From: Erythrobasidium yunnanense
Lineage: Eukaryota; Basidiomycota; Cystobasidiomycetes; Erythrobasidiales; Erythrobasidiaceae
NCBI GenBank assembly: GCA_001600175.1
Contig: BCJC01000002.1
Location: 2,391,111 to 2,455,110, forward strand
DNA: 64,000 nucleotides
Reading direction: 5' to 3'
Shown here in pieces: positions 18,866 through 58,849 of this stretch (position 1 is the first letter of the stretch; each line of letters opens with the position of its first letter). Made by a program: the position numbers and the translations under genes. Under the pieces are notes generated by a model, which was given only the letters and a program-made list of their open reading frames with translations, was not told the DNA's origin and searched no databases.

Positions 18866-20252
18866 TTATCGACAAATGAACGCTATTCCCCTAGACTCGC
18901 AATCCAGCTGTACCTGCCTAGCTTCTCCACTCTTGTCCGTCTGCCATTCTACTCCCATGCCCACCAGATCCAATCTCTGAATATCCAACTTCCTGTCCAT
19001 GAGAGCTGCCAACACGTCTCCAGGTGCAATCCCGCTAGGATTCGCTGCTATAGCTTCTTGCTCCGCTTTCTGTTGATGATCACTTGTAGGTCGCAGAGAG
19101 CGTAGTGGCCATGCGTTAAAGAAGCTCAGGGTGCGAAGCTGAAGGTCGGATTCTTGTATCTCCTCGAAGATATCGCTCGATACGCATAGCAGGCCACCTA
19201 GTGCTAGATGCCGTATGTTGGGTATGTACTGAATTATTTCGTTCCCTATCCTTTGTGGGATCTGAAGCATTTCGATCGGGTAGTAGAAGTCCCCATTGGC
19301 TGAAAGTGTGCCGTTGACAAAGGATGCATACAGCTCCTCACGATCTATGACTGGCTGAGGTGCGCCTGTCCCGAGTTCAAGGTGTACGAGCTCCTCTCCT
19401 CGGTCGTCTAGCAGATCATGAAGGAACTGAGCATCCAATCGCGTATCGCGGACGACCAGCTTGGTAAGATGCGTTGCTTTTCGCACGAAGTCGAAGATCT
19501 TCCCAAAGACGATTTCTGGAGAGTTGCGTATGGTAAAGGACGTGAGGTTTGGCAGGACGAGCTCTGCGGCGTCGACGTATTGCTCATTGTGGCTCGCAGC
19601 CGCGTTGACATTATCGATGAGAAGTGTCTGAAGCAGAGGTAGCTTCTCTATGAGCTGCATGACATGCATCATCGGCTCTGTGACCGTATTATAGATTGCG
19701 AGCGAGGTGACGGTCTTCGCGAAGCCTGCCAGACGGCTGATATAGGTACCAGACGGGAGTGGCTTAACCAGCCGTATCTGCTCATTCATGCTTATTCTGA
19801 GCATATAGACGTCCGGCAGAGCTGCAATCATCTGATCGATGTCTTTATCGTCCAGGCCGCCGAAGGCCTCGCCCGTCCTTTCGAAGTGCAGGTCCAGAAC
19901 GCGTATCAGACTGGAAGCTAGAGTAAGAGGTGTCTTCTTGAACTTGTTTCCACGAAGAAGAGCTGCGAGCTTTGTCCACTGTTTCGAGCATGTCAGCATC
20001 TAGACTCTTTGCTTCGCTTACGCATGTACAGCGTACCTGCGACTTGGTAGATAGTTGCACCTCACTCCAGTACACCGGCCTTGCTGCATTCCGAAATCGT
20101 TTCCCGCTTTTCATCAAAGCCAGTAGGAAGGTCGAAGTCGCATGCGATCTAGGTTCTTCAGCGATGCCAGAGTCGAAGTGAGAGACGATCTCTAGAAGGA
20201 GCTCGACAGGCAGGGTGTCCAGTAGGTCTGAAAGAGGTTTTGCTTGTGTCAT
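18866..20252 (-). CDS. F-box/leucine-rich protein, array copy 1
   Basis: First of six head-to-tail paralogues. Exon 1 begins MTQAKPLSDLLDTLPVELLL, an F-box-like start (LPxELLLxI), and ends STKSQ. A 59-base intron joins it to WTKLAALLRGNKF. The second exon has irregular leucine-rich units (LPLLQTLLIDN, LVLPNLTSFTIRNS, HLTKLVVRDTRLDAQFLHDL, IPNIRHLALGG) and closes with the family tail NPSGIAPGDVLAAL, LDIQRLDLVGM and QLDCESRGIAFICR. The frame is intact. F-box proteins usually recruit substrates to an SCF ubiquitin ligase; here that role is inferred only from the motif. Confidence 0.75.
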
Positions 20253-20492
20253 GGCCTTGCTGGGCGGTTTGGGCTGAGTTCGCAGGCGTCATTTTCAGCT
20301 AGATGACACTGCAGACTTGATGTCCTTCATACAGCTAGGAATGTCATAGCATTTGATGCGAGGTTTCGAACAAATCGGAACAAACGAACGCGCACGTCTG
20401 AGCCAAGGCAACCGTGTCCGGCGTCATTAGATGGCATTGCAATACAGCAACAGTGAAAGTCCACGACTCTGTGATCTTGTGCGATGAGTCTA

Positions 20493-22051
20493 CTACCTGC
20501 AGACAAAGACTATTCCCCTAGCCTCGCATTCCAACTTAACTTGCAACGCATCGACATTGTCCCCTTCGATGCCGTCTTCATCGACATAGTCGCCCGGATA
20601 CCACAAGCGCTGCATGTTTACGAACTCCAATCGCCGTACATTCAGCAATAGTTCGTCATCCAGAGCATCGAGAACATCCCAAGGTGCAATCCCGCTATGA
20701 TTGCATAATACATATTCATCAGCGTCCTCAGCATCTGGACCCTCAAGGCTGAAGCCATATCGTCCACCTTTCATTGTCGATGGAAAGCGCCAAGTATGAA
20801 TAAAGGCCAATGTATCGAGCTGGAGACCGCCTTCCCTTATGAGATCAAAGATCCGTGGGGTCACAGTGTTGATACCGCCAAGCATCAGGTATCGGACGTT
20901 TGGGAGGTAGCCGATAATCTCGTTGCATATCCTTTCGGACTTTGCCAGACTTCGTACAAAGTCCCGAAGCTGGAGATCGAGTTCGAGGTGTCCACTAAGT
21001 ATAGATTCCTTTATAACATGCCAGCTGTCCGCTTTTTCCCACCAATCTCCACAGTCTATCTCTAGCTCGAAGTGCGAGAGCCTGGCACCGCATCTCGCCA
21101 GAAATTCGTGGATGTAGGGGCCATCAATTTCGACTGAGCGAAGTACAAGCTTGGTGAGATTTGGTGATTGTAGGAGAAACTGGTATTTTCGGTCGAATAG
21201 TTGTCGTGAGCACGAAATACTGAAGGATCTTAGGCGGGGCATTTCGAGCGCCCAATTGTCAGGCTCTGTCGCGAGAGCATCGGAGAAAGATCTAGCATCA
21301 GACGGATATTTCGTCTGCGCATACCCAAAATTTGACAAAGCGAGCGTTTCGAGCAGCGGAAGGCTTTGCAGCAGGCTTATGACGGATTCCATGGGTTGCG
21401 TGGAAGCGGTGTTCAAAGTCAAGGAGATCAGACTCGATCCCAGACAAGTTAAGTGACCCATGTACATGTCTGCACGGACTGGATCCCGCGGAGGCCGCCA
21501 TTGCGCGTTACATTGAAGACTGCGAAGATGCGGAATAGCTTGAACCAATTGATCGATGTTGTGGCCGTCCACGGAGTCTTCCGTCCCCTTGAGGTCTAGC
21601 CAGAGAGCTTGGATCCATATGCAAGGTGATGTCGATCTGGCTTTCGCGCTGTTCAAGATTGCCAATAGCTTGATGCACTGTGCTCAAACATCAGCGACGC
21701 CGCAAATTCTTCGAGATGCGACACATACTTGATCTTTTGTAGATATGCGTACTTCTTTCCAGTACGCAGGCTGCAGAGCAGCCCGGCAGTACTTGCTGGT
21801 ATTCATCAACGCTTGGAGACATGAGGTCGCGGAAGTTCTTCGGCTGTTGCAGTTCGCCTTTGAGAAGGATACGATGTGTAATAGAAGCTCGATGGGGAGG
21901 TCGTTGAGTGAAGCGCAACGCTGTTTGTCGGGCTTGGGCTGTCCTGACATGAGACCCAGCTACAGCGGGTTCGCATTAGCAATCCAAGTAGACCTGTACA
22001 GAGAGTGAATAGAAGTCTTACAATGGTCCCTATACCCCGAAGGGTCTGCAT
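20493..22051 (-). CDS. F-box/leucine-rich protein, array copy 2
   Basis: Three exons. A short first exon MQTLRGIGTI is joined by an intron to LGLMSGQPKPDKQRCASLND and the F-box-like LPIELLLHIVSFSKA. A second intron after STKDQ leads to CIKLLAILNSAKAR. The leucine-rich part includes HLRSLQCNAQWRPPRDPV, SLPLLETLALSNFGY and NLTKLVLRSVEIDGPYIHEF. The tail HSGIAPWDVLDAL, NVRRLEFVNMQRLWYP and KLECEARGIVFVCR is complete. Most like copy 6 in the AQWRPPR and SFSISCSR segments. The start is the first ATG in the first exon. The alternative TTG 66 bases upstream is less likely. Confidence 0.72.
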
Positions 22052-22179
22052 GCCCAAGTGACGCGAACGCGATACGCGTTGAGCGAAGCAAAGGAAGGAT
22101 GCAAACGATTCTTTCAAGACAGAAGTGAGATTGTCCTATCGCTATTGTATCACAGGCTTAGAATCCGCTTATCTGACTA

Positions 22180-23708
22180 TTAAGAGCACACAAACTCGAT
22201 CCCTCTTTTCTCGCATTCCAACCTAACTTGCGTGACTGTGTGATCGCGATACGGGTTCCATGCCTTTATCATCCGCTTGAAAATCAAGCGTGAGACATGC
22301 AGCTTACCATCGATCAAAGCTCTATGAACATCCAGGGGGGAAATTCCGCTCGGTCTGTTGATTCGTGTTTCTGACTGTTCTGCAGAGCCAATGACCTTCA
22401 AGAGCAAATTGAGCTTGAAAGTTCGCACGCGTAGAATGAGAGCTTACCAAATTCTTGGGAAATGGCCATACATTGAAAAACTCCAGTGTATGAATCCTTA
22501 GGCCAGCTTTGTGGATTTCGTCAAAGACCTCCGCTGTCAGGCACTGAATTCCACCGAGGGAAAGGTGTCAGATGTTTCTGAGATATCGAATAACATCATT
22601 TCCGATCCTAGTGGACGCAGAAAGCAGCTTCAAGAGTCTAACGGCCCCGTGGGGGACTTGTCCAGGTGCGAACCCATCCACCATCGCCCTGTAAAGCTCC
22701 TCGGAACCCCCTGGACTATAGCTGTCTGGGTCCGAGCCCAGCTCGAGATGCAGAAGTTTAGCTCCGCATCTTGCCATAAAGCTATGAAGGTATTGAACAT
22801 CCAATTGTGAGGCGCGTATTACAAGCTTGGTTAGATGCTCTGCTCGGTACAGAAAGTCAAAGTGCGGAGCACAGAAGGAGTAGATGCTCCAAATTTCGAG
22901 CGATTTTAGATGGATGAGGCTGAGTGCCCCGTCCTTGTGCTGATCTGTGCCTTCATTCGAAAGTACCGCTGGCTCATCGCTTTCCTCGAGATTGCGCAGG
23001 GCAAGTGATTGAAGTAGCGGGAGATGCGGCAGCCAATCAATCATAGTTTCCAGAGGTATTTGGGCGACACAGTGTATAGAGAAAGAGGTGAGGGTCTTCC
23101 CAAAGCCAGCTGAGGAGCCGAGGTATTGGTTCCACCTTGACGTGCACAGGCTGATGTGTATGCGGGATACCTCGGGGAGCACCATGGCCATTTCCGCGAT
23201 GTCCTCATGCCTTATGTAGGCTTTGCGAGGATCGCTACTCACGTGGAGTCGCAGAGAGTGTATAGAAGTAGGCGGCAACCCGGGTGCAATGCCCGGTTCA
23301 TCACTTTGCACTAGGAGGGACAGCTGGTTCCACTACAGGTTTACATGGATCAGCTGATCCGATGGCAGACATAGACTTCAGGCTCACGCTGACTCCCTCG
23401 AATAGTTCTACCTCGTCCCAAAACATCAGCCGTAACGCGCGCCTGCATCGCTTATTACAATTCATCAGAGCCCGCAAGCTTCCGGTCTTGTCCCACGTCG
23501 ATTCGTCAGCGTGGATAGCTTTGAGATAGGCTCCGATGTGGACGAGAAGCTCGTCGGGTAGGTCATTGAGCGAAGCATGCTGTTTCTTGTCCGTAGGCTG
23601 TTTGGCGTCAAAACCAGCAATTTTGGAGGGATATCAGAGTTGTGGCTTTCAGGCAGCAGACAGACTCTTCGTACAGAATTATTTAACATCGTTGTCGAGA
23701 TTCTGCAT
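22180..23708 (-). pseudogene. F-box/leucine-rich protein, array copy 3, interrupted
   Basis: Same layout as its neighbours. The F-box exon reads QHASLNDLPDELLVHIGAYL and ALMNCNKRCRRALRLMFWDE, then an intron, then WNQLSLLVQSDEPG and the leucine-rich part. The frame meets an in-frame TGA at 22568-22570 (RYLRNI, stop, HLSLGG), where the other copies have a sense codon, here expected CGA. Beyond it the rest of the gene is well kept: HTLEFFNVWPFPKNL, a clean intron, PSGISPLDVHRAL, and RLECEKRGIEFVCS ending at 22180. Either it is a recent pseudogene, or it gives a protein shorter by about 110 residues, or the stop is read through. The first exon is uncertain (ATG at 23708 or 23689). Confidence 0.65.
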
Positions 23709-23831
23709 ATGCGTTGTCAGAGGCGCGCGTTGAGCGAAGCAAAGGCGCGATGAGGGTCGGGTTTGTAGCTAGATCCAGGACTCTGCTGCTAAGTACAACA
23801 AGCACTTTAAGAGATCATCTTGGCTTTGCTA

Positions 23832-25342
23832 TCACCGACATACGTATTCTACCCCGTGTTTCTCGCACTCCAGCTTGACTTGCATCGCTTGAGGGTTCTG
23901 TTCGGGATCCCACAGGCGTTCCATACCTACGAAAACCAGTCGATCAACACACATCTTTCCTTCGCGTATAGCCTTCAGCACATCTTCGGGCGAAATCCCG
24001 CTCGGCTCGTTGTCTCGCGATGTTAGCCTTTCCCCTGCAGTAGGGAAGTATGAGGCGAGATTTGCTGGGAAAGGCCAAGCGTTGAAGATTTCCAAGGTTT
24101 CGATTCGCGCACGTCTTTGAGATTTCATGGAAGATGCCGGCTGATATGCAGCCGCAGCCTCCAAGGGATAGGTATTGTACGCTGGGAACATACTTGATGA
24201 TCTCGTTTCCTAGCCTATCCGGACACGCTAGTGTCTGTGCCACATTATCGATATCGTATACGCCCACTCGCGTACCTGGAGAGGTAAGCGCAGTGTAGAC
24301 CTTTTCTTCGTCCCCATAGCGCTGCTCGCTTGCCTCAATCTCAAGATGTGAGAGCCTAGCTCCCCGCTTCGCCAAAAGATTGTCCAGGAAAGGCCGGACC
24401 TCCCGTGTGTCTCGAATCACGAGCTTCGTGAGAGCCTCGGCCTCGTAAAGGAATCCGAAATTCTTTTCATCGAATTCGATGACTCCTTCGAGGGTCAAAG
24501 ACTTCAGGAAGGCGAGTTTGAGAGGCTCGCCATCGTGCTGAGATGGCCCATTCTCGGAGGATGGCTGCTCGGTTGTAAGGTAGATGGAGAGGTTGTGTAG
24601 GGCGATGTTCTCAAGCAGAGGAAGCCTACGGAGGAGGGACATGACGGGCTGCATAGGACGCGGAAGACTGCCTCCAATATTCAGGGTTGTGAGGCTTTTC
24701 CCAAATCCTGCAAGGGCATCGAAGTACTTGCGCGCTGGCACAGGCAGGCTGCCGACCTGCCAATCTGCATGAAATTGTAGCCTTTGTAAATCGGGGAAGA
24801 GCGTGACCATCTCGTCGATATCTTCGGGACGCAGGATGTTCTCCTCTTCTGAGCGAACGATAACGAGACACAGGGCGCGTATCATGGTGGGAGACAGTGA
24901 TAGATGTGGAGGACTGTCTTCGGTGCCTTGCAGAGCATATGAAAGCTTCGTCCACTGTAGGGCAAACATAATTTTTAGCGAGAATACCGCGATCCTGTAA
25001 ATAGAAATGGTGAACTCACACGGGTGTGCGATGATACAAGGACTTCGTCCCAATACAGGCTCGCGAAGGCTTTTCGGTACTGTTCGCTAGTGTTCATAAA
25101 TGCTCTGAGGCCTCTCTTCGCGGAGCTGGCTTCAGCGATGTGGAATTCGTCATCTTGGTGCAGAGTTCTCAGATAACCGCCAATTCGTAGTAGAAGCTCG
25201 TTGGGAAGGTCATTGAGCGACGCGCGCTGGCCTTTGGCCTTGCACTTTTCCGACAGCAGACCAGACGAGCAAGTCCAGCGTCAGAAGACGTACGAGAACG
25301 AGTAGGGCAGGTATGAGTGATTCGTACGGATAGAATTGACAT
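23832..25342 (-). pseudogene. F-box/leucine-rich protein, array copy 4, frameshifted
   Basis: F-box exon QRASLNDLPNELLLRIGGYL and AFMNTSEQYRKAFASLYWDE, intron, then WTKLSYALQGTEDS and the leucine-rich part (PLLENIALHNLSIY, ALTKLVIRDTREVRPFLDNL, VPSVQYLSLGG). Near 24115 the frame slips: between FHEIS and ETLEIFNAWPFP there are 2 bases fewer than the paralogues require, and no splice pair rescues it. The second frame then carries an intact tail (NEPSGISPEDVLKAI, VDRLVFVGMERLWDP, LECEKHGVEYVCR) to 23832. It looks like a young pseudogene or a sequence error. The first exon is uncertain; the ATG near 25342 gives a workable splice. Confidence 0.62.
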
Positions 25343-25486
25343 TTTCAATAGCCTTCGCAGGCGTGCTTGTCAGAGGATGCATATCGAGCGGAGCAAAGCA
25401 AACGTGTTTCGGGGCCTTTGCAAATTCCAAAGCTTAATGCGACTGAGTACTATAGAAAGGCGCACACACTGCTCTGTCTCGAGATA

Positions 25487-27149
25487 TCATGTGCACACAA
25501 GAGCGATTCCTCTTTTCTTGCATTCGAGCGCAACCTGCCTAGCGTCTTCGTTCCTCTGAAAGTGCCATATATTGACCATTCCAGTAAACTCCAACCGGTC
25601 CACGTGCATCTGGCCCTTCTCCATAGCTGTCAAAACGTCTCTGGGCGTGATACCGCTTTGACAATTTTCCAAACCCTTCACACGGTCTGAAATTTCGCGA
25701 GACGATGTTAGGAGTTGACTGACCTGATGTGGACCAAGCTCCACTGTAGGGTGGCTGGAAAAGTGAAATACATTCGACGGGAACGGCCAAGTGTCGTGAA
25801 ATGACAGATGACGAAGATTGAGCCCAAATTCCCGTATCCGGTCGAAGATGCTTGCCGTTACGCAGTTGAGGCCACCAAGGACTAGATGCTGGACTTTCGG
25901 AATGTACTGGATGATCTCGTCTCCTATTCTGCCGGGGTCCGCCAACTGGCGTAGGAGGGTTGCGTACTCGATCCTCGATTGCGGATTGCCGAGCACCATG
26001 TAGCACCAGACAATGTTTCTGTCCCATAGCTCTGCATGATATGATCTCAAACTCAGATGCGAAAGGTTATCGCCCCGCTCTGCCAAGAGGCTCTTTAGAA
26101 ATGATGGTTCACAATCCATTTCGCAGATTGCAAGCTTCTTGAGACCTTCAGACTGTCGAAGGAAGTCGAAGTAGCCATCAAAGAGGCGGGGAGATTCAAA
26201 AATCTTGAAAGACTTCAAGTGAGGCAGGCTGATCGGCCAGGCGTGGTTCTCGCACGCGACGTCCGCCGGCAGAGCCTGTCCAGCCGCGAACTTCTCCTGC
26301 CTGAGTCCAAAACCGCACAGACTTAGCTCTTCGAGGAGCGGAAGACAGCAAAGGAGGGCCATAACGGGTTCCAGGGGTTGTGAAGAGGCGGTCTTCAAGA
26401 TGAGGGAGGTCAAGCTCTTCCCAAACCCCGTCAAGAAGGGTGTGTACATCGCTGCTGTCGCTGGTCCTTGAGGAGGTCGCCAGTGAGCATCGACTCGTAG
26501 AGTACATATATTCGGGAGCATCTTCACCATCTGCAAGATGTGTCTGGGATCAACGGAGTGCTCGCAGCCTGTGAGCTCTAGATGCAGAGAGCGCAGCATT
26601 CCGGTTGAAGGCGCTAGCGATTGTGTCTCTCCCTTGTCTTTCGAGAGCAAGCCTGGCAGCTCAACCCACTGCGCACTGGATGTCAGTCCAAGCGCGACTT
26701 TGTAAGCACTGCGCCCACATGAGCTCTATGGATGACGCGCAATTCAGCCCAGTAGACTCTTTGTAAAGCCAACCGGCAATGCTTGCTGGCGTTCATCAGC
26801 GCCTGAAGGTATCGATTTTGGCGATCCGGATGCTTCTGGCTAGCAGGCTTGTTGTAACTTGCAATGTGTAGGAGAACCTCGACAGGCAGATGATTGAGCG
26901 AGGCGCGTCCATTCTTCTTCGGATCCTGTGTTGTCGCCTCGAAAGTCAGCCTGATGGCCAGCGACTCGAGATGTTGCGCATCTCGTACATCCAATAAAGA
27001 GATATCTTGCAGGTCTTGGCTCAGATTGCGCGTACCGTATTCAGCTTTGGCCTGAGACTGATTCGTCTAGCGAGAGCAGTACCAGCTTCAGTCACGGCGA
27101 CGATTGAATTCAGGATACAGATCGCGCAGCGTACAGATGGACTCGACAT
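25487..27149 (-). CDS. F-box/leucine-rich protein, array copy 5
   Basis: The F-box exon reads RASLNHLPVEVLLHIASYNK and ALMNASKHCRLALQRVYWAE. An intron after VIHRAH leads to WVELPGLLSKDKGETQ. The leucine-rich part has ICTLRVDAHWRPPQGPAT, CLPLLEELSLCGFGL, LKKLAICEMDCEPSFLKSLL and IPKVQHLVLGGLNCVTASIF, with the tail QSGITPRDVLTAM, VDRLEFTGMVNIWHF and LECKKRGIALVCT, and an intact frame to 25487. No ATG precedes the F-box in its own exon. The best start is the ATG at 27147-27149 in an upstream exon spliced with a GTACGC donor; this is tentative. Confidence 0.68.
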
Positions 27150-27312
27150 GATGAGCCAGATTCAGGCGGCCGGTTTCGCGTTCGCGTGTTGGGCAAAGCA
27201 AAGAGAAAGGAGCACATGAGATCCCTCTCGGCTCGGCTGAGTAGCAGGGAAGGGCTTAGATTGTGTAAACACTCTGACACATATACAATGTGACAAGCCC
27301 GCGAATCAGATG

Positions 27313-28872
27313 TCATCGGCAGACGAAGACTATTCCTCTCTTTTCGCATTCCAGCTTAACCTGCATTGCTTGCTCGTTTCGTTTGGGCTTCCACAGGCAT
27401 TCCATGTGTACAAATTCCAATCGTTGCACGTCCAATTTGCCCTTCTCGAGTGCCCAAAGGAGGTGCTTAGGTGCGACTCCGCTCGGCTCGCATATGAGCG
27501 TTACTATATCTCCATCGTCATCGATATAAGCGACATCGTAGTCGTTCTTCGGGTTAATCAAGTGCGGCAGAGGCCATGTATGGACAAATGCCAGAGTATC
27601 AAGCTTGAGTCCGGCTTTTTCGATGTTCTCGAAGATTTGCTCTGTAAAACAGCCGAAACCCCCAAGAGAGAGATAGCGTACATTTGGAATGTACTGGATG
27701 ATTTCGTTTCCTATCCTTTCTGGGCTTGCCAGCTTGTGAAGGAGCTCCTCGAGTGCAGTGTACCCGTCGAGGGGACCATTTATGAAGGAAGATTGTATGG
27801 ATTTCCAGATGTCCGCCTGATCCCATAAATCGAGAGAGTGTGAGTCCAATTCAAAGTGCAACAGCCTAGCACCACAATGGGCCAGTAAAGTGTGCAGGTA
27901 TGGGCGATCGAAATCTGTCGAGCGTATCACAAGCTTTGTGAGGTTTTGTGCTAATCGAACGAAATCGTAGCAGCGACTGAATAGACGGCGTGAACACGAA
28001 ATACTGAAGGAGCTTAGATGGGCCAGTCTGAGGGGCGCTGGTCTAATAGGCGGGGTCGCCTGCTCCACTGTCACTAGCTTGGCGGAGCTTGCGGGCTCAG
28101 GCTCAGGGGCCTTCTGCAATTCCAATCCATAACCGCAAAGAGCGATCGACTCCAGTAGCGGGAGGCTGCGTAGTAGCCTGATGACAGGTGCTACGGGCTC
28201 ATTTGAGGTAGTGGTCAACGAGAGGGACGTGAGGGTTCTCCAGAAGCCAGCAAGGTCATCGACGTACATGTCTGGAGTCACCTCGGAGCGTGGGGGCCGC
28301 CATTGCGCATAGCATTGTAAGCTGCTGAGGTAGGGAAGAGCTTTGACTAGCTGCTGGATCTCCCGATGCTTTAGGGATTTCCTTGTCCCGGTAATATCCA
28401 TTCGAAGGGTGTGTATCATCCAGATTGGGGGCATTATTGAGTGTGTGTACGAAGGAGTCCTCCTAAGAAGGGACAATAATCGGCGGCACTACCGTACAGA
28501 TTGGCACATTGTCGAGCTTTCGGGAATGCGGGACCATACACCTACCTGGCGCTTGGTAGATATGTATACCTGATGCCAATAGCTTGATTGTAGAGCGATG
28601 CGGCAATGCTTGCTCGTGTTCATCAACGCCCTGTGACATTGGCTTTGAAAGCTCTTTCGGCTTCGATTAGCAGGCTTGTTGTATGCTATGATCAGCAACA
28701 GAATCTCGGTAGGTAGATCGTTCAGGGAAGCGTAATGCCTCTTGATGGGCTTTTCTTCGAGCGCCAGAGACAGCTCGGAGCCAGTTGAGGACGTTTCAAT
28801 ATGCAAGTCTCGTTTGCGCAGAGATAGAGCGGATTGGAACCATCTGACGAGCTTGCGTAAGGAGGTGGGCAT
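27313..28872 (-). CDS. F-box/leucine-rich protein, array copy 6
   Basis: Opens MPTSLRKLVRWFQSALS, then the F-box-like HYASLNDLPTEILLLIIAYN and ALMNTSKHCRIALQSSYWHQ. An intron after STKRQ leads to CRRLLSLLRRTPS. The leucine-rich part includes YLSSLQCYAQWRPPRSEV, SLPLLESIALCGYGLELQ, SSFSISCSRRLFSRCYDFV and IPNVRYLSLGGFGCFTEQIF. The tail is PSGVAPKHLLWAL, LDVQRLEFVHMECLWKP and LECEKRGIVFVCR. The frame is intact. It is the upstream end of the array, 115 bases from the formin stop codon, on the same strand. Confidence 0.73.
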
Positions 28873-54560: not shown

Positions 54561-55029
54561 ATCTTGACGTCGTTTCGCTGCTTCACGCACATCTTTGCTG
54601 TTTCTTCGCTCTTTCAAGACGCGGTCTGAGCGGGCACGAGGGCGACCTTAAGATGTATAGATAGGCTTAAGGCAGAGTCTTGAATGAGCTTTAAAGGTGA
54701 TGTATAAGTCTAGATTAATCAATTGGTCAATTCCCAGCTTCAAACGGTCAATCCAAGGTTAACCAGAATCCAACTCTCTGTCAAAGGGGTCCATGCCAAA
54801 TTCAAGACAATCTAAGAAGCTTTAATCGCGAAGACTAATGCTATGCATAACACATGGGTCCTACGTCTCGCATCCTGTCGACGTGCGACCTCCTCCAAAA
54901 TCCTGACTTTCTGCCAGACGTGTCTTGGCTGTGCTTTGTCGACTTTCATCTGCTGATCTGGTCTGCGGTATACGACGTCTCCTGCGACGTCTAGTCTACA
55001 AAGCTACCGAACCCGAAAGAGCCAATATC
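54561..55029. other. Divergent intergenic region, no gene seen
   Basis: About 470 AT-richer bases between the septin start and the first of the three Ser/Arg-rich genes. Probably promoters only. Confidence 0.4.
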
Positions 55030-56379
55030 ATGTCGAGAAGGGCTAGCTCAGCCAGAAGTCGTGGCAATCACGGTCGCAGCGAGGACGACTACTCCAGCGA
55101 CGAGAGATACGATAATGGACGCAAAGGACGCGGTGGCTCCCGCCTTCCAGTTGGCTACTCCTACCCTTGGAAAGAAGACGACGGCCTCGTCCATGCCCAC
55201 CTCAAGCAGCTTTCCAGGGGACGAAATGCCAGACTGATCAACAATGAGTTTGCTCGAGGTCTCAAGAACGTCCAAGTCGAGAAGCCGCACGACTTTCGGA
55301 GCTGGAGACGCTCAGCGGACGGTCGCGATGTGCCGGTAACGGAGGAAGAGTTGATGCTAGGTACCATCCAGAGCAAGCTAGAGACTCTTCTAGATGTACA
55401 ACAGGCGCAGCAGTATATGCTGGCAGAGCGAAGGGGACTTCGACAGGCGGAGATCGCTGCTCATCGAGGCAAAGGCAAGTTCCCGATCGCTCGCGAGCGA
55501 AGAGAAACAGCGCCTCTTCCGCACCATCTGCGAGGCTCGGGACGTATCAACAGCGAAGATGAAGCTTTACGCCAAGCTGAGCTTGGGGAGGTTCAGCACA
55601 TTAGGGCGCTCATAAAGGATCTCAAAGCGCTCGATGATGGCAAAGAAGAGGTTTACCGAAAACAATTGAATAGCGGGCGACCCCCTGAGCTACCCGAGAT
55701 CGAAGTCGAGCAGCTTCTGAAGCTTGTCAAATTCAGGATTGCGGCGCTCCCGAACCCAGACCCACGTCTGATGAGGGAATATCGAGCAGCAAAGGAAGTC
55801 GCACAGTTGAGGGAACGTATCCAATGGCTACATAACGACCTCAAGCCAGGCGGACTGCTGGAACGACAGAAACGCTTAGCTGCCGCAAAAGGCGAAGATC
55901 CGCAACTGATCAAGCGACATGCTCTAGGGCGAGGAGTCCAACAGAGTGGCCTAGCGTATGATCCTCAAGTGGCTATACGCCTTTGCGAAGATTTATTGCG
56001 AGCAGCCTTAAAAGGTATCCTCACATCGTCTGAGTATAACGATCTTAATGCCAAACTTACGACCAAGCTTAAAGATCCACGATACAATGTCATCACCTCA
56101 CCACCTCTCACTCGTCTACGCCCACCTGAACTGGAGCCTGGCCATCGACCCGTCTTGGGTGGACGAGGCGTCGTCGTTCCGGAGAGGAGGCTGCCACGAC
56201 CCATTGCTATGGTTAAAGATGCAAAAACAGACACACAACGACAATGCCATGTCTTCCTACCTGCGTATGGCCTGGCCAGGAAGTTTCAACATGATGTTTT
56301 CGTGGAAGGTCGCTCCCTGGTGTGCGTTCCAAGAGGCCGTGACAGGCCGTCTCATGGCCGTGCGAATGCTAGACGCTGA
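55030..56379 (+). CDS. Orphan Ser/Arg-rich protein A (tandem trio)
   Basis: Not recognised. A 449-residue protein in a single exon. The N-terminus is Ser/Arg/Asp-rich (MSRRASSARSRGNHGRSEDD, then YSSDERYDNGRKGRGG). The middle is charged and helical (RLINNEFARGLKNVQVEKPH, RALIKDLKALDDGKEEVYRK, AKEVAQLRERIQWLHNDLK). Near the C-terminus is the module shared with the next two genes: AYDPQVAIRLCEDLLRAALK then SSEYNDLNAKL, followed by CHVFLPAYGLARKFQHDVFV and GRSLVCVPRGRD. No signal peptide or membrane helix. Absence of introns is unusual in this window. Function unknown; a nuclear or RNA-related role could be guessed from the RS-like start, but that is weak. Confidence 0.7.
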   Translation: MSRRASSARSRGNHGRSEDDYSSDERYDNGRKGRGGSRLPVGYSYPWKEDDGLVHAHLKQLSRGRNARLINNEFARGLKNVQVEKPHDFRSWRRSADGRDVPVTEEELMLGTIQSKLETLLDVQQAQQYMLAERRGLRQAEIAAHRGKGKFPIARERRETAPLPHHLRGSGRINSEDEALRQAELGEVQHIRALIKDLKALDDGKEEVYRKQLNSGRPPELPEIEVEQLLKLVKFRIAALPNPDPRLMREYRAAKEVAQLRERIQWLHNDLKPGGLLERQKRLAAAKGEDPQLIKRHALGRGVQQSGLAYDPQVAIRLCEDLLRAALKGILTSSEYNDLNAKLTTKLKDPRYNVITSPPLTRLRPPELEPGHRPVLGGRGVVVPERRLPRPIAMVKDAKTDTQRQCHVFLPAYGLARKFQHDVFVEGRSLVCVPRGRDRPSHGRANARR

Positions 56380-56656
56380 GTTATGATATCAGCCTGCTTC
56401 TTGTCAAAGCAACTCTGCAAACCGAATATCCAGCTTCCATGGAACAGACCGCCTCGCACATTTCCTTACGCTTCTGAGATAGCAGCTATTCTTCCGAATG
56501 CCTTGCTCTCCATTCTACTGACTCAACCTTCTGTATTATGTCTGACTCCGGCACAGCCATCGCGTGCAACAGTCCGTAAGAATCCTCACTTCAGGCTAAA
56601 GCTGTTGCTACACGACGCACAAGTACACGCTCTCTATCTTTGATCAAGCCAACATC

Positions 56657-57910
56657 ATGCCGTCACACTCACGGCGGCACCGTCGGCGCGACTCACCCAG
56701 CGATCCTGAGTCAGATCAATACTCTTACGACTCGAATGAAGATTCGTTTAAACGGACCCATAAGCGTACTTCTACGCACACAGACGATTGGAGGCGCTCT
56801 ACTCAGCGTATGCGGCAGTCAAGCTCGTCGAGCGATCGAAGCGATGGGAGCACTTCAAGCGAGTCCGATCGCAGTGGCAGCAGAGCCAAAGACAGGCATG
56901 CCAAGGGTGTACACAGCCATACACGCTCGAAGAGATCATCTCACAGTACGCGAAATCCACGACTATCTGCTTCGGCGCTCGAAAAGCTGGCAATGGCAAA
57001 TATGATGCAAGAAGAGCAAAGTCGGGCTAAATGGATTCAAAGTCGCAACTTACTCAAAGAGGCCCAGATAGCAGCTATTCGCAACCAACGTCAACCTCGC
57101 AAAGACCCTCTGCTCAGTCGACCAGCCTTGGGTGCTGCTGAAGAAGCAGCTGCGGTCTCACGCGCAGGCGCAGCCATCACCCAACAGCTCCAGTCTCTTG
57201 TCCAAGATATCGCTAGCTTCCGAGCTGGCAAGCTTACTGCGAAGATTATACTACAGTCTGAGCTTCGCGAAACGGGAAGAGCGAGGAACATTGACCAGTA
57301 CGTTGCAGAACAGCTTGCAGAGATGGGCATCGAGACTGGACCTGCGAAAGAGGATGTTGCAGGCGAGAGTGATATACGCAGAATGTTTGCGTACTACAGA
57401 CTTCGATTGAACTCCTTATTGGCCGGCCAATCGCCTCAGCTGGTCGAACAATACATGAGCCACCTCAAGAAGGCTTATAGAGTAGCCAAGCTGCGTGAAA
57501 AGATATCGGCTCTAGAACAATCGATACGTGCACCACCTGCAGAGGCCAAAACGAGGCGAGGTCTCGACTTCGATCCTGGCCTTGCGATCGATCTATGCCA
57601 GCGCCTACTTCAGTCTGTTCAAGAGGCTGTAGTCACTCCGACCGAATATACGGAACTCAATGTCAGGATCACGAACACACTGCAGCTTGTTGGGGCTATT
57701 CAGACATCCCGCGCCGAAGGAGAGCTGGTCGAAGGAAGGTTTCCCTGGCTCCTCAGGCCAGCCTTCGCCTACTACGAGCGCCCAAGCTCAGTAGCGCTAG
57801 TGGAAGGCCGGCTGGGCCGCGCTCTTCTACCGAGCTTTCGAGAGGCTAAGAAGCAGAAGTACGATATTCAGCTTCGGGGCAGGTTTCTGGCGTGTGTTCT
57901 AATAAGCTAG
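56657..57910 (+). CDS. Orphan Ser/Arg-rich protein B (tandem trio)
   Basis: Not recognised. 417 residues, one exon, same strand as gene A and 277 bases after it. It starts MPSHSRRHRRRDSPSDPESD and continues Ser/Arg/Asp-rich for about 110 residues (RQSSSSSDRSDGSTSSESDR). The helical middle includes SRAKWIQSRNLLKEAQIAAI and AKLREKISALEQSIRAPPAE. The shared module is FDPGLAIDLCQRLLQSVQEA, TPTEYTELNVRITNTLQ, then GRALLPSFREAKKQKYDIQL and RGRFLACVLIS at the very end. Clearly paralogous to A in order and spacing of blocks, although identity is low. Intronless. Confidence 0.68.
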   Translation: MPSHSRRHRRRDSPSDPESDQYSYDSNEDSFKRTHKRTSTHTDDWRRSTQRMRQSSSSSDRSDGSTSSESDRSGSRAKDRHAKGVHSHTRSKRSSHSTRNPRLSASALEKLAMANMMQEEQSRAKWIQSRNLLKEAQIAAIRNQRQPRKDPLLSRPALGAAEEAAAVSRAGAAITQQLQSLVQDIASFRAGKLTAKIILQSELRETGRARNIDQYVAEQLAEMGIETGPAKEDVAGESDIRRMFAYYRLRLNSLLAGQSPQLVEQYMSHLKKAYRVAKLREKISALEQSIRAPPAEAKTRRGLDFDPGLAIDLCQRLLQSVQEAVVTPTEYTELNVRITNTLQLVGAIQTSRAEGELVEGRFPWLLRPAFAYYERPSSVALVEGRLGRALLPSFREAKKQKYDIQLRGRFLACVLIS

Positions 57911-58129
57911 TTTCACTGGCTGTCTTCCGCTTGACTCTTCAATCAAAGTCATTAAGTTCACTATTCTGGCCATAATCGCAACTGCCCATCATGTAGATTC
58001 GGAGGCGGTGCTTTCGTATCGCACTGTGCTAACACATGTTTTACCTGCTCCAAGGATTTTCTTCGTGCATTTTTATACGAGCCAGCGGTTTGCGACTCTT
58101 GTGCTTTCGTCTAAAACCTTCGCAGAAAC

Positions 58130-58849
58130 ATGGGTGACCGTGATCGTCGCGCTTCCAATGCCCGAGCATATTCACCCCGTAGGCACTCTCGAAGCTCTTC
58201 CAGTGGCTCAAATGGCTCCAGCGCTTCAAGCTTGTCGGCGTCTAGCTACTCTGGCAGATCAGAGCGAAGCTCTTATAGCTCCGGATCTGGGGCTAGCTCA
58301 GCAACAAGTCAGTCCAGTTTCGAGGAGAACTCTGGCCAGGGGGCGCCCTTCTTCAACTCGTTAAGCCAGAAAAGGATTGATGTCAGAGCACTGCGAGAGT
58401 CTATCGCTCGACTGCCAACCGATTTGAACGCCGATCCCAAGATTGCAGACCCACGAAGCGCGCTGGACAGAGCTGTCATTCTATGCAGAGATTTGACGAT
58501 TGCTGCGGCTGCTGGTCGTCGATCTGGAATGGACGATCGACTCTACGATGAGCTGAATCTCAGCTTGTCCGAGACTCTGCTTCGACAGGGAATAGCAGCC
58601 TACGTCGATACCGTCCAGGCCGGACAAGTGCCTTTGCAAAACATCGGCAAGCGCTTCTTCCTGCCGGACTATGCTCTGATTAAGGACATGCTTCCCGGCT
58701 CAATCGTTGAGGTCCATTTGGCTGCCCCTCTCCGGCATCCGAGGCTGAAACCAATGACTGGAGGTCCAGAGAAATTAGTATGGTCGCTCGTCAACCGCGG
58801 ACATGAGAGGATTGGAAGGAATGCAGAGGGAAAGATGTTTCGCGCATGA
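58130..58849 (+). CDS. Orphan Ser/Arg-rich protein C (tandem trio)
   Basis: Not recognised. 239 residues, one exon, 220 bases after gene B on the same strand. It starts MGDRDRRASNARAYSPRRHS and is Ser-rich for about 80 residues (SSSSGSNGSSASSLSASSYS). It lacks the long helical middle of A and B but retains the C-terminal module: DPRSALDRAVILCRDLTIAA, DDRLYDELNLSLSETLL, then RFFLPDYALIKDMLPGSIVE and VHLAAPLRHP. Seen as a shortened paralogue. Intronless. Confidence 0.65.
   Translation: MGDRDRRASNARAYSPRRHSRSSSSGSNGSSASSLSASSYSGRSERSSYSSGSGASSATSQSSFEENSGQGAPFFNSLSQKRIDVRALRESIARLPTDLNADPKIADPRSALDRAVILCRDLTIAAAAGRRSGMDDRLYDELNLSLSETLLRQGIAAYVDTVQAGQVPLQNIGKRFFLPDYALIKDMLPGSIVEVHLAAPLRHPRLKPMTGGPEKLVWSLVNRGHERIGRNAEGKMFRA

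Follow-up and report, generated by a model that had tools for sequence, protein, structure and literature searches.

An old tandem array of six putative F-box/leucine-rich repeat genes in the basidiomycete Erythrobasidium yunnanense

Among the described systems, the FBXL-type proteins (Skp2, FBXL2 and FBXL17, as well as Dia2 of yeast) come closest to the locus reported here, as they carry an N-terminal F-box followed by an irregular leucine-rich repeat (LRR) solenoid. At the level of gene arrangement, the F-box clusters of the plant S-locus have a layout comparable to that of tandem F-box arrays. Plant lineage-specific F-box genes are described, in the available part of PMC3030570, as being born in tandem and including many pseudogenes, with relaxed Ka/Ks in the drifting copies. 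In this study, a stretch of 64,000 nucleotides (hereafter the window) from contig BCJC01000002.1 of Erythrobasidium yunnanense was investigated, in which six paralogous genes, all on the minus strand, follow one another head to tail between positions 18866 and 28872. The gene content and the shortness of the introns point to a fungal source. We consider it probable that these are F-box/LRR paralogues that serve as substrate receptors of Skp1-cullin-F-box (SCF) ligases, produced by old tandem duplication and shaped by birth-and-death evolution under purifying selection.

The initial annotation had described six paralogues on one strand with no other gene among them, and this was borne out by the gene models, the spacing of the copies and the genome searches. 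The five gaps from a stop to the next start measure 145, 128, 142, 144 and 163 nucleotides (nt) and therefore leave no room for other genes, and a repeat search made independently of any gene model recovered one direct-repeat family of six units spaced 1627-1826 nt apart. Searched against the 20.9-Mb genome, the last exons of copy 6 (E-value (E) <= 0.001) and copy 1 (E <= 10) each returned eight matches, all within the array, and no member of the six-copy family was detected elsewhere in the genome by these sequence searches. The xLECExRGIxFVCR-like C-terminal ending and the W/CxxL motif were observed in all six copies, as previously claimed, and the motif follows an intron of 50-65 nt in every one of them; the view that this shared intron is the only one holds for its position alone, since a second intron, at the 5' end, is probable in copies 1-5. 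The proposed F-box-like exon ASLNDLPxELLL was recovered in part: ASLNDLP is exact in four of the six copies and deviates to ASLNHLP in copy 5 and to SDLLDTLP in copy 1. Eleven positions of this exon are invariant in all copies, among them the three fixed residues (L, P and E) of the LPxE core. When 25-column windows of the alignment were compared, the C-terminus was the most conserved (mean column identity 0.63) and the F-box the second (0.50), with the three least conserved stretches at 0.07, 0.12 and 0.18.

The profile check suggested for the F-box gave a divided answer, as the Pfam cut-off was reached by none of the six copies, whereas a remote profile derived from the genome itself matched all of them. 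This hidden Markov model (HMM) was built from 31 segments of other genes, taken from the 84 segments of the genome that match PF12937; all 84 lie above the cut-off (4 of them only with neighbours counted), the six copies are absent from them, and two loci were omitted from the model as the same genes were already represented among its segments. Applied to the N-terminal segments, it scored the six copies at 7.8-20.8 bits, above 200 of 200 shuffles in each case, the highest shuffle score being 7.6 bits (for copy 2, which itself scores 19.4 bits). Comparison by hhalign of the six-copy N-terminal profile with the 31-segment profile gave a probability of 96.7%. For the remainder of the protein, copy 6 was the sole copy folded whole. 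Its AlphaFold2 model (12-row alignment; mean predicted local distance difference test (pLDDT) 72.9, predicted template modelling score (pTM) 0.71) places three helices over the F-box stretch, behind which strand-helix repeats make up an LRR-type fold. A Foldseek search with this model at E <= 0.001 yielded 27 matches, of which 15 are F-box/LRR ligase entries (FBXL17, FBXL2, Skp2, D3, MAX2, Dia2 and 4i6j of the Protein Data Bank (PDB), which we take to be FBXL3); FBXL-type proteins rank among the best structural matches. Both the remote profile match and these structural matches support the F-box/LRR identity initially assigned, and the six copies form a remote F-box/LRR family outside the reach of curated models. 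A PDB profile search was uninformative, with 17 matches, mainly designed LRR proteins, and a best E of 0.052. The last exons of copies 6, 1 and 5 obtained a single chance-level match in NCBIfam (E 0.2), and that of copy 6 found no match among plasmids and no confirmed relative among viral contigs.

With respect to age and selection, pairwise identity among the six copies is 29-49%, and in each of the 15 pairs the proportion of nonsynonymous differences (pN, 0.34-0.48) is far under that of synonymous differences (pS, 0.71-0.78). The corrected nonsynonymous distance (dN) ranges from 0.45 to 0.76, and the synonymous distance (dS) is infinite in 9 of the 15 pairs and 2.27-3.83 in the remaining 6, for which dN/dS is 0.16-0.32. 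The array is thus old, because the copies are so dissimilar and their synonymous sites are saturated, and this saturation also led us to reject a recent expansion. In the tree of the six copies, copy 2 pairs with copy 6 (85) and is then joined by copy 5 (98), and copies 3 and 4 form another pair (90). This nesting supports the several rounds of tandem duplication implied earlier, and the AQWRPPR and FSISCSR blocks, confirmed as common to copies 2 and 6, fit the pairing of these two. Four of the six copies (1, 2, 5 and 6) are intact, with 454-500 amino acids, and copies 3 and 4 are interrupted. Past the lesions, the last 58-60 aligned codons show pN/pS of 0.29-0.63 in the nine pairs that involve copy 3 or 4, compared with 0.33-0.55 in the six pairs of intact copies. 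The lesions are recent or else assembly errors, because these C-terminal codons are as constrained as in the intact copies; on the strength of the same tails, 58-60 codons only, the possibility that copies 3 and 4 are long-dead pseudogenes was rejected.

The F-box repertoire of the genome places the array in a wider setting. Besides the 84 PF12937 segments, 32 matches to PF00646 were counted, both figures being lower bounds. Defining a cluster by gaps of <=6 kb, we observed that 38 of the 84 PF12937 matches sit in 14 clusters, 13 of them one-stranded, as against a mean of 3.9 and a maximum of 16 clustered matches in 2000 trials of random placement, in which the genome was treated as a single line and the matches as independent. 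Eight other F-box regions were examined, and 37 proteins (31 open frames of >=300 amino acids and the six copies) were compared. Grouping by blastp assigned 36 of them to six families and left one alone; the six copies make up a family of their own, with a within-family identity of 28-47%, and the other five tandem families (at C1 3.28-3.31 Mb, C5 0.98-1.01 Mb, C1 1.31 Mb, C2 2.17 Mb and C1 2.62 Mb) span 22-52%. The idea that the array is unique in the genome was rejected in view of the 14 clusters and these five families, and the same families, like the age of the copies, also weaken the earlier proposal that no candidate for a lineage-specific system in the window is stronger.

Two of the families, those at C1 3.28-3.31 Mb and C5 0.98-1.01 Mb, look leucine-rich on visual inspection. 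Profile-profile comparison with the full-length six-row alignment linked the array to them (95.8% and 90.5%, respectively) over about 230-250 columns, F-box included, and left the other three unlinked (5.2, 4.8 and 12.4%); the common F-box may drive both links. The two families resemble the array in consisting of tandem F-box genes with similar within-family divergence. They are not connected to the six copies by blastp at E < 1e-5, and they differ further in keeping the F-box and the downstream part mostly in one open frame where the array copies are split by an intron, and in possessing dispersed relatives: searches of the genome with one member each placed 13 of 17 and 10 of 15 matches in the query's own neighbourhood and the rest (4 and 5) elsewhere, whereas the six-copy family has none. 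With reference to other fungi, the available part of PMC7991009 gives Ustilago maydis 16 F-box proteins, 1 of them with an LRR, and Puccinia graminis 17, none of them with an LRR; by comparison, 84 matches is suggestive of a high number, the counting methods being different. A table row for PF00646 in PMC4469406 runs from 3 to 43 over ten columns in an extract that lacks the column headings. No tandem F-box/LRR array in fungi was reported among the matches listed in our literature search, which comprised titles and abstract openings. In itself the array is of an ordinary kind, and its mild interest lies in being part of this genome-wide pattern; if the pattern holds, the fungus would be well suited to studying the purpose of large F-box repertoires.

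As receptors of an SCF ligase, the proteins would dock on Skp1 through the N-terminal F-box and hold a substrate in the LRR solenoid, so that the bound protein would then be ubiquitylated; the copies would be alternative receptors with distinct substrates. The array would have grown long ago through several rounds of tandem duplication, its copies diverging in birth-and-death fashion under purifying selection, with copies 3 and 4 having recently lost their reading frame or carrying assembly errors. The genome carries Skp1-family and cullin matches, and direct support exists for the homology of the six genes, the shared intron position, the remote F-box match of every copy, the predicted LRR-type fold of copy 6 and the constraint. 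A number of observations nevertheless weigh against the SCF receptor reading. PF12937 was matched in four of the six copies at E 0.0091-0.083 and 13.1-16.2 bits, under its cut-off of 24.3, and copies 1 and 4 had no match to any Pfam F-box model. Modelling of the copy 1 F-box exon by itself yielded low confidence (pLDDT 67, pTM 0.42) and no Foldseek match below E 3.9, and in the model of copy 6, which includes 19 intron-derived residues, the pLDDT over the F-box is just 54-75 per ten-residue block. The LRR cut-offs of Pfam were likewise reached by none of the six copies, PF24758 appearing below cut-off in copies 2 (E 0.0032) and 3 (E 0.16) and PF12799 in copy 2 (E 0.11). Thus the array copies, unlike FBXL-type proteins, reach no curated F-box or LRR model, and they share 10-13% identity with those proteins in the structural alignments with copy 6. 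Since NLRC4 was the top Foldseek match, 12 of the 27 matches are entries other than F-box ligases (LRR proteins) and the TM-scores by query are low (0.22-0.40), the LRR alone may drive the structural matches. The weak F-box matches and this possible effect of the LRR would agree with F-box/LRR proteins that bind Skp1 and act outside SCF, or with LRR scaffolds that have lost Skp1 binding; we regard such a role as very unlikely, as none of the six copies deviates at the core residues of the F-box, which is also the second most conserved window.

A different explanation concerns the existence of the array rather than what its proteins bind, and is hence not exclusive of the others: random tandem duplication may have produced the array as a mostly dispensable by-product whose copies are decaying towards pseudogenes, an origin proposed for numerous F-box genes of plants. 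The two interrupted copies agree with such drift, and so does the generality of F-box clustering in this genome. The plant lineage-specific genes, as far as the available part of PMC3030570 describes them, offer a parallel in their tandem growth and interrupted copies, and differ in that the array copies are old and still under strong constraint. This constraint, with pN far below pS in 15 of 15 pairs and persisting in the tails past the lesions, argues against pure drift, and we hold drift to be unlikely. The tandem layout and the many separate F-box clusters, together with the three highly variable stretches between a conserved F-box and C-terminus, would also suit a shifting receptor repertoire directed at nonself or pathogen proteins, as in incompatibility, defence or host contact. 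Variable stretches are, however, expected even without selection, the saturated synonymous sites preclude a test for positive selection, and the scan of 10 flanking open reading frames (ORFs) turned up no known gene for recognition or mating type; such a role is accordingly given a slim chance. Slimmer still is that of its broadest version, in which the genome-wide repertoire of old F-box/LRR array families, the present one included, would be an adjustable recognition system targeting foreign or selfish proteins for degradation, with the strongly conserved C-terminus as a docking face common to the copies and the variable stretches for specificity. Constrained SCF receptors of old tandem origin remain the reading that we prefer.

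The coordinates of the six copies and of the upstream elements are collected in the table. All splice sites are predicted, and the additional 5' introns that copies 1-5 probably carry (59, 83, 77, 83 and 209 nt, respectively), behind a first exon of 5-10 codons, are based on splice signals and homology; the 209-nt intron of copy 5 is the least certain of them. Copy 3 probably has a third intron at 22447-22375, within the last exon, which the other copies lack.

Table. Predicted gene models of the array and upstream elements, in window coordinates
Feature	Position	Strand	Details
Copy 6	28872-27313	-	500 aa, intact; exons 28872-28546, 28488-27313
Copy 5	27149-25487	-	467 aa, intact; exons 27149-27135 (inferred), 26925-26719, 26668-25487
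Copy 4	25342-23832	-	interrupted, frame change near 24110; exons 25342-25328 (inferred), 25244-25020, 24954-23832
Copy 3	23689-22180	-	interrupted, in-frame TGA 22570-22568; exons 23689-23675 (inferred), 23597-23388, 23332-22448, 22374-22180
Copy 2	22051-20493	-	474 aa, intact; exons 22051-22022 (inferred), 21938-21729, 21677-20493
Copy 1	20347-18866	-	454 aa, intact; exons 20347-20333 (inferred), 20273-20037, 19978-18866
Upstream element CTTTGCTTCGCTCAAC	22078-22093	-	before copy 2
Upstream element, identical to CTTTGCTTCGCTCAAC	23729-23744		before copy 3
Upstream element, related	25383-25398		before copy 4; 3/16 mismatches
Upstream element, related	27188-27203		before copy 5; 2/16 mismatches

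Copies 2 and 3, which belong to separate clades, have the same 20 nt upstream; these begin 43 nt from the ATG in copy 2 and 56 nt from it in copy 3. Copy 4 keeps 15 of the 20 positions at 62 nt and copy 5 keeps 16 at 55 nt, and the best sites before copies 1 and 6 are poor (12/20 and 13/20) and contribute little. At all three widths used, the element scores above every one of 12 shuffles, and the 16-mer, with <=3 mismatches allowed, has five matches in the window against 0.95 expected, four of them being the sites before copies 2-5. Genome-wide, the sequence CTTTGCTTYGCYC has 17 occurrences, compared with 4 for its reversed control, and 3 of the 17 are within the array. Among the 14 outside it, 9 are covered on one strand by an open frame of at least 120 codons, and the ATGs that follow mostly start short frames, so that a general promoter role was not borne out, and neither was co-regulation of the array.

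On the low-coordinate side, the array is bordered by an Abhydrolase_3 (alpha/beta hydrolase) gene. The ORF pieces on the high-coordinate side would belong to one formin gene, with Drf_GBD above its cut-off and FH2 (E 0.0021) below it. Farther along the window, on the plus strand at 54925-58846, three neighbouring Ser/Arg-rich ORFs with no Pfam match at E <= 0.01 were observed. The first and second are related (blastp E 2e-13) and the third weakly so (E 0.002), and the middle one, used as a query against the genome, matched itself and the first and nothing else; they are possibly a second small tandem family.

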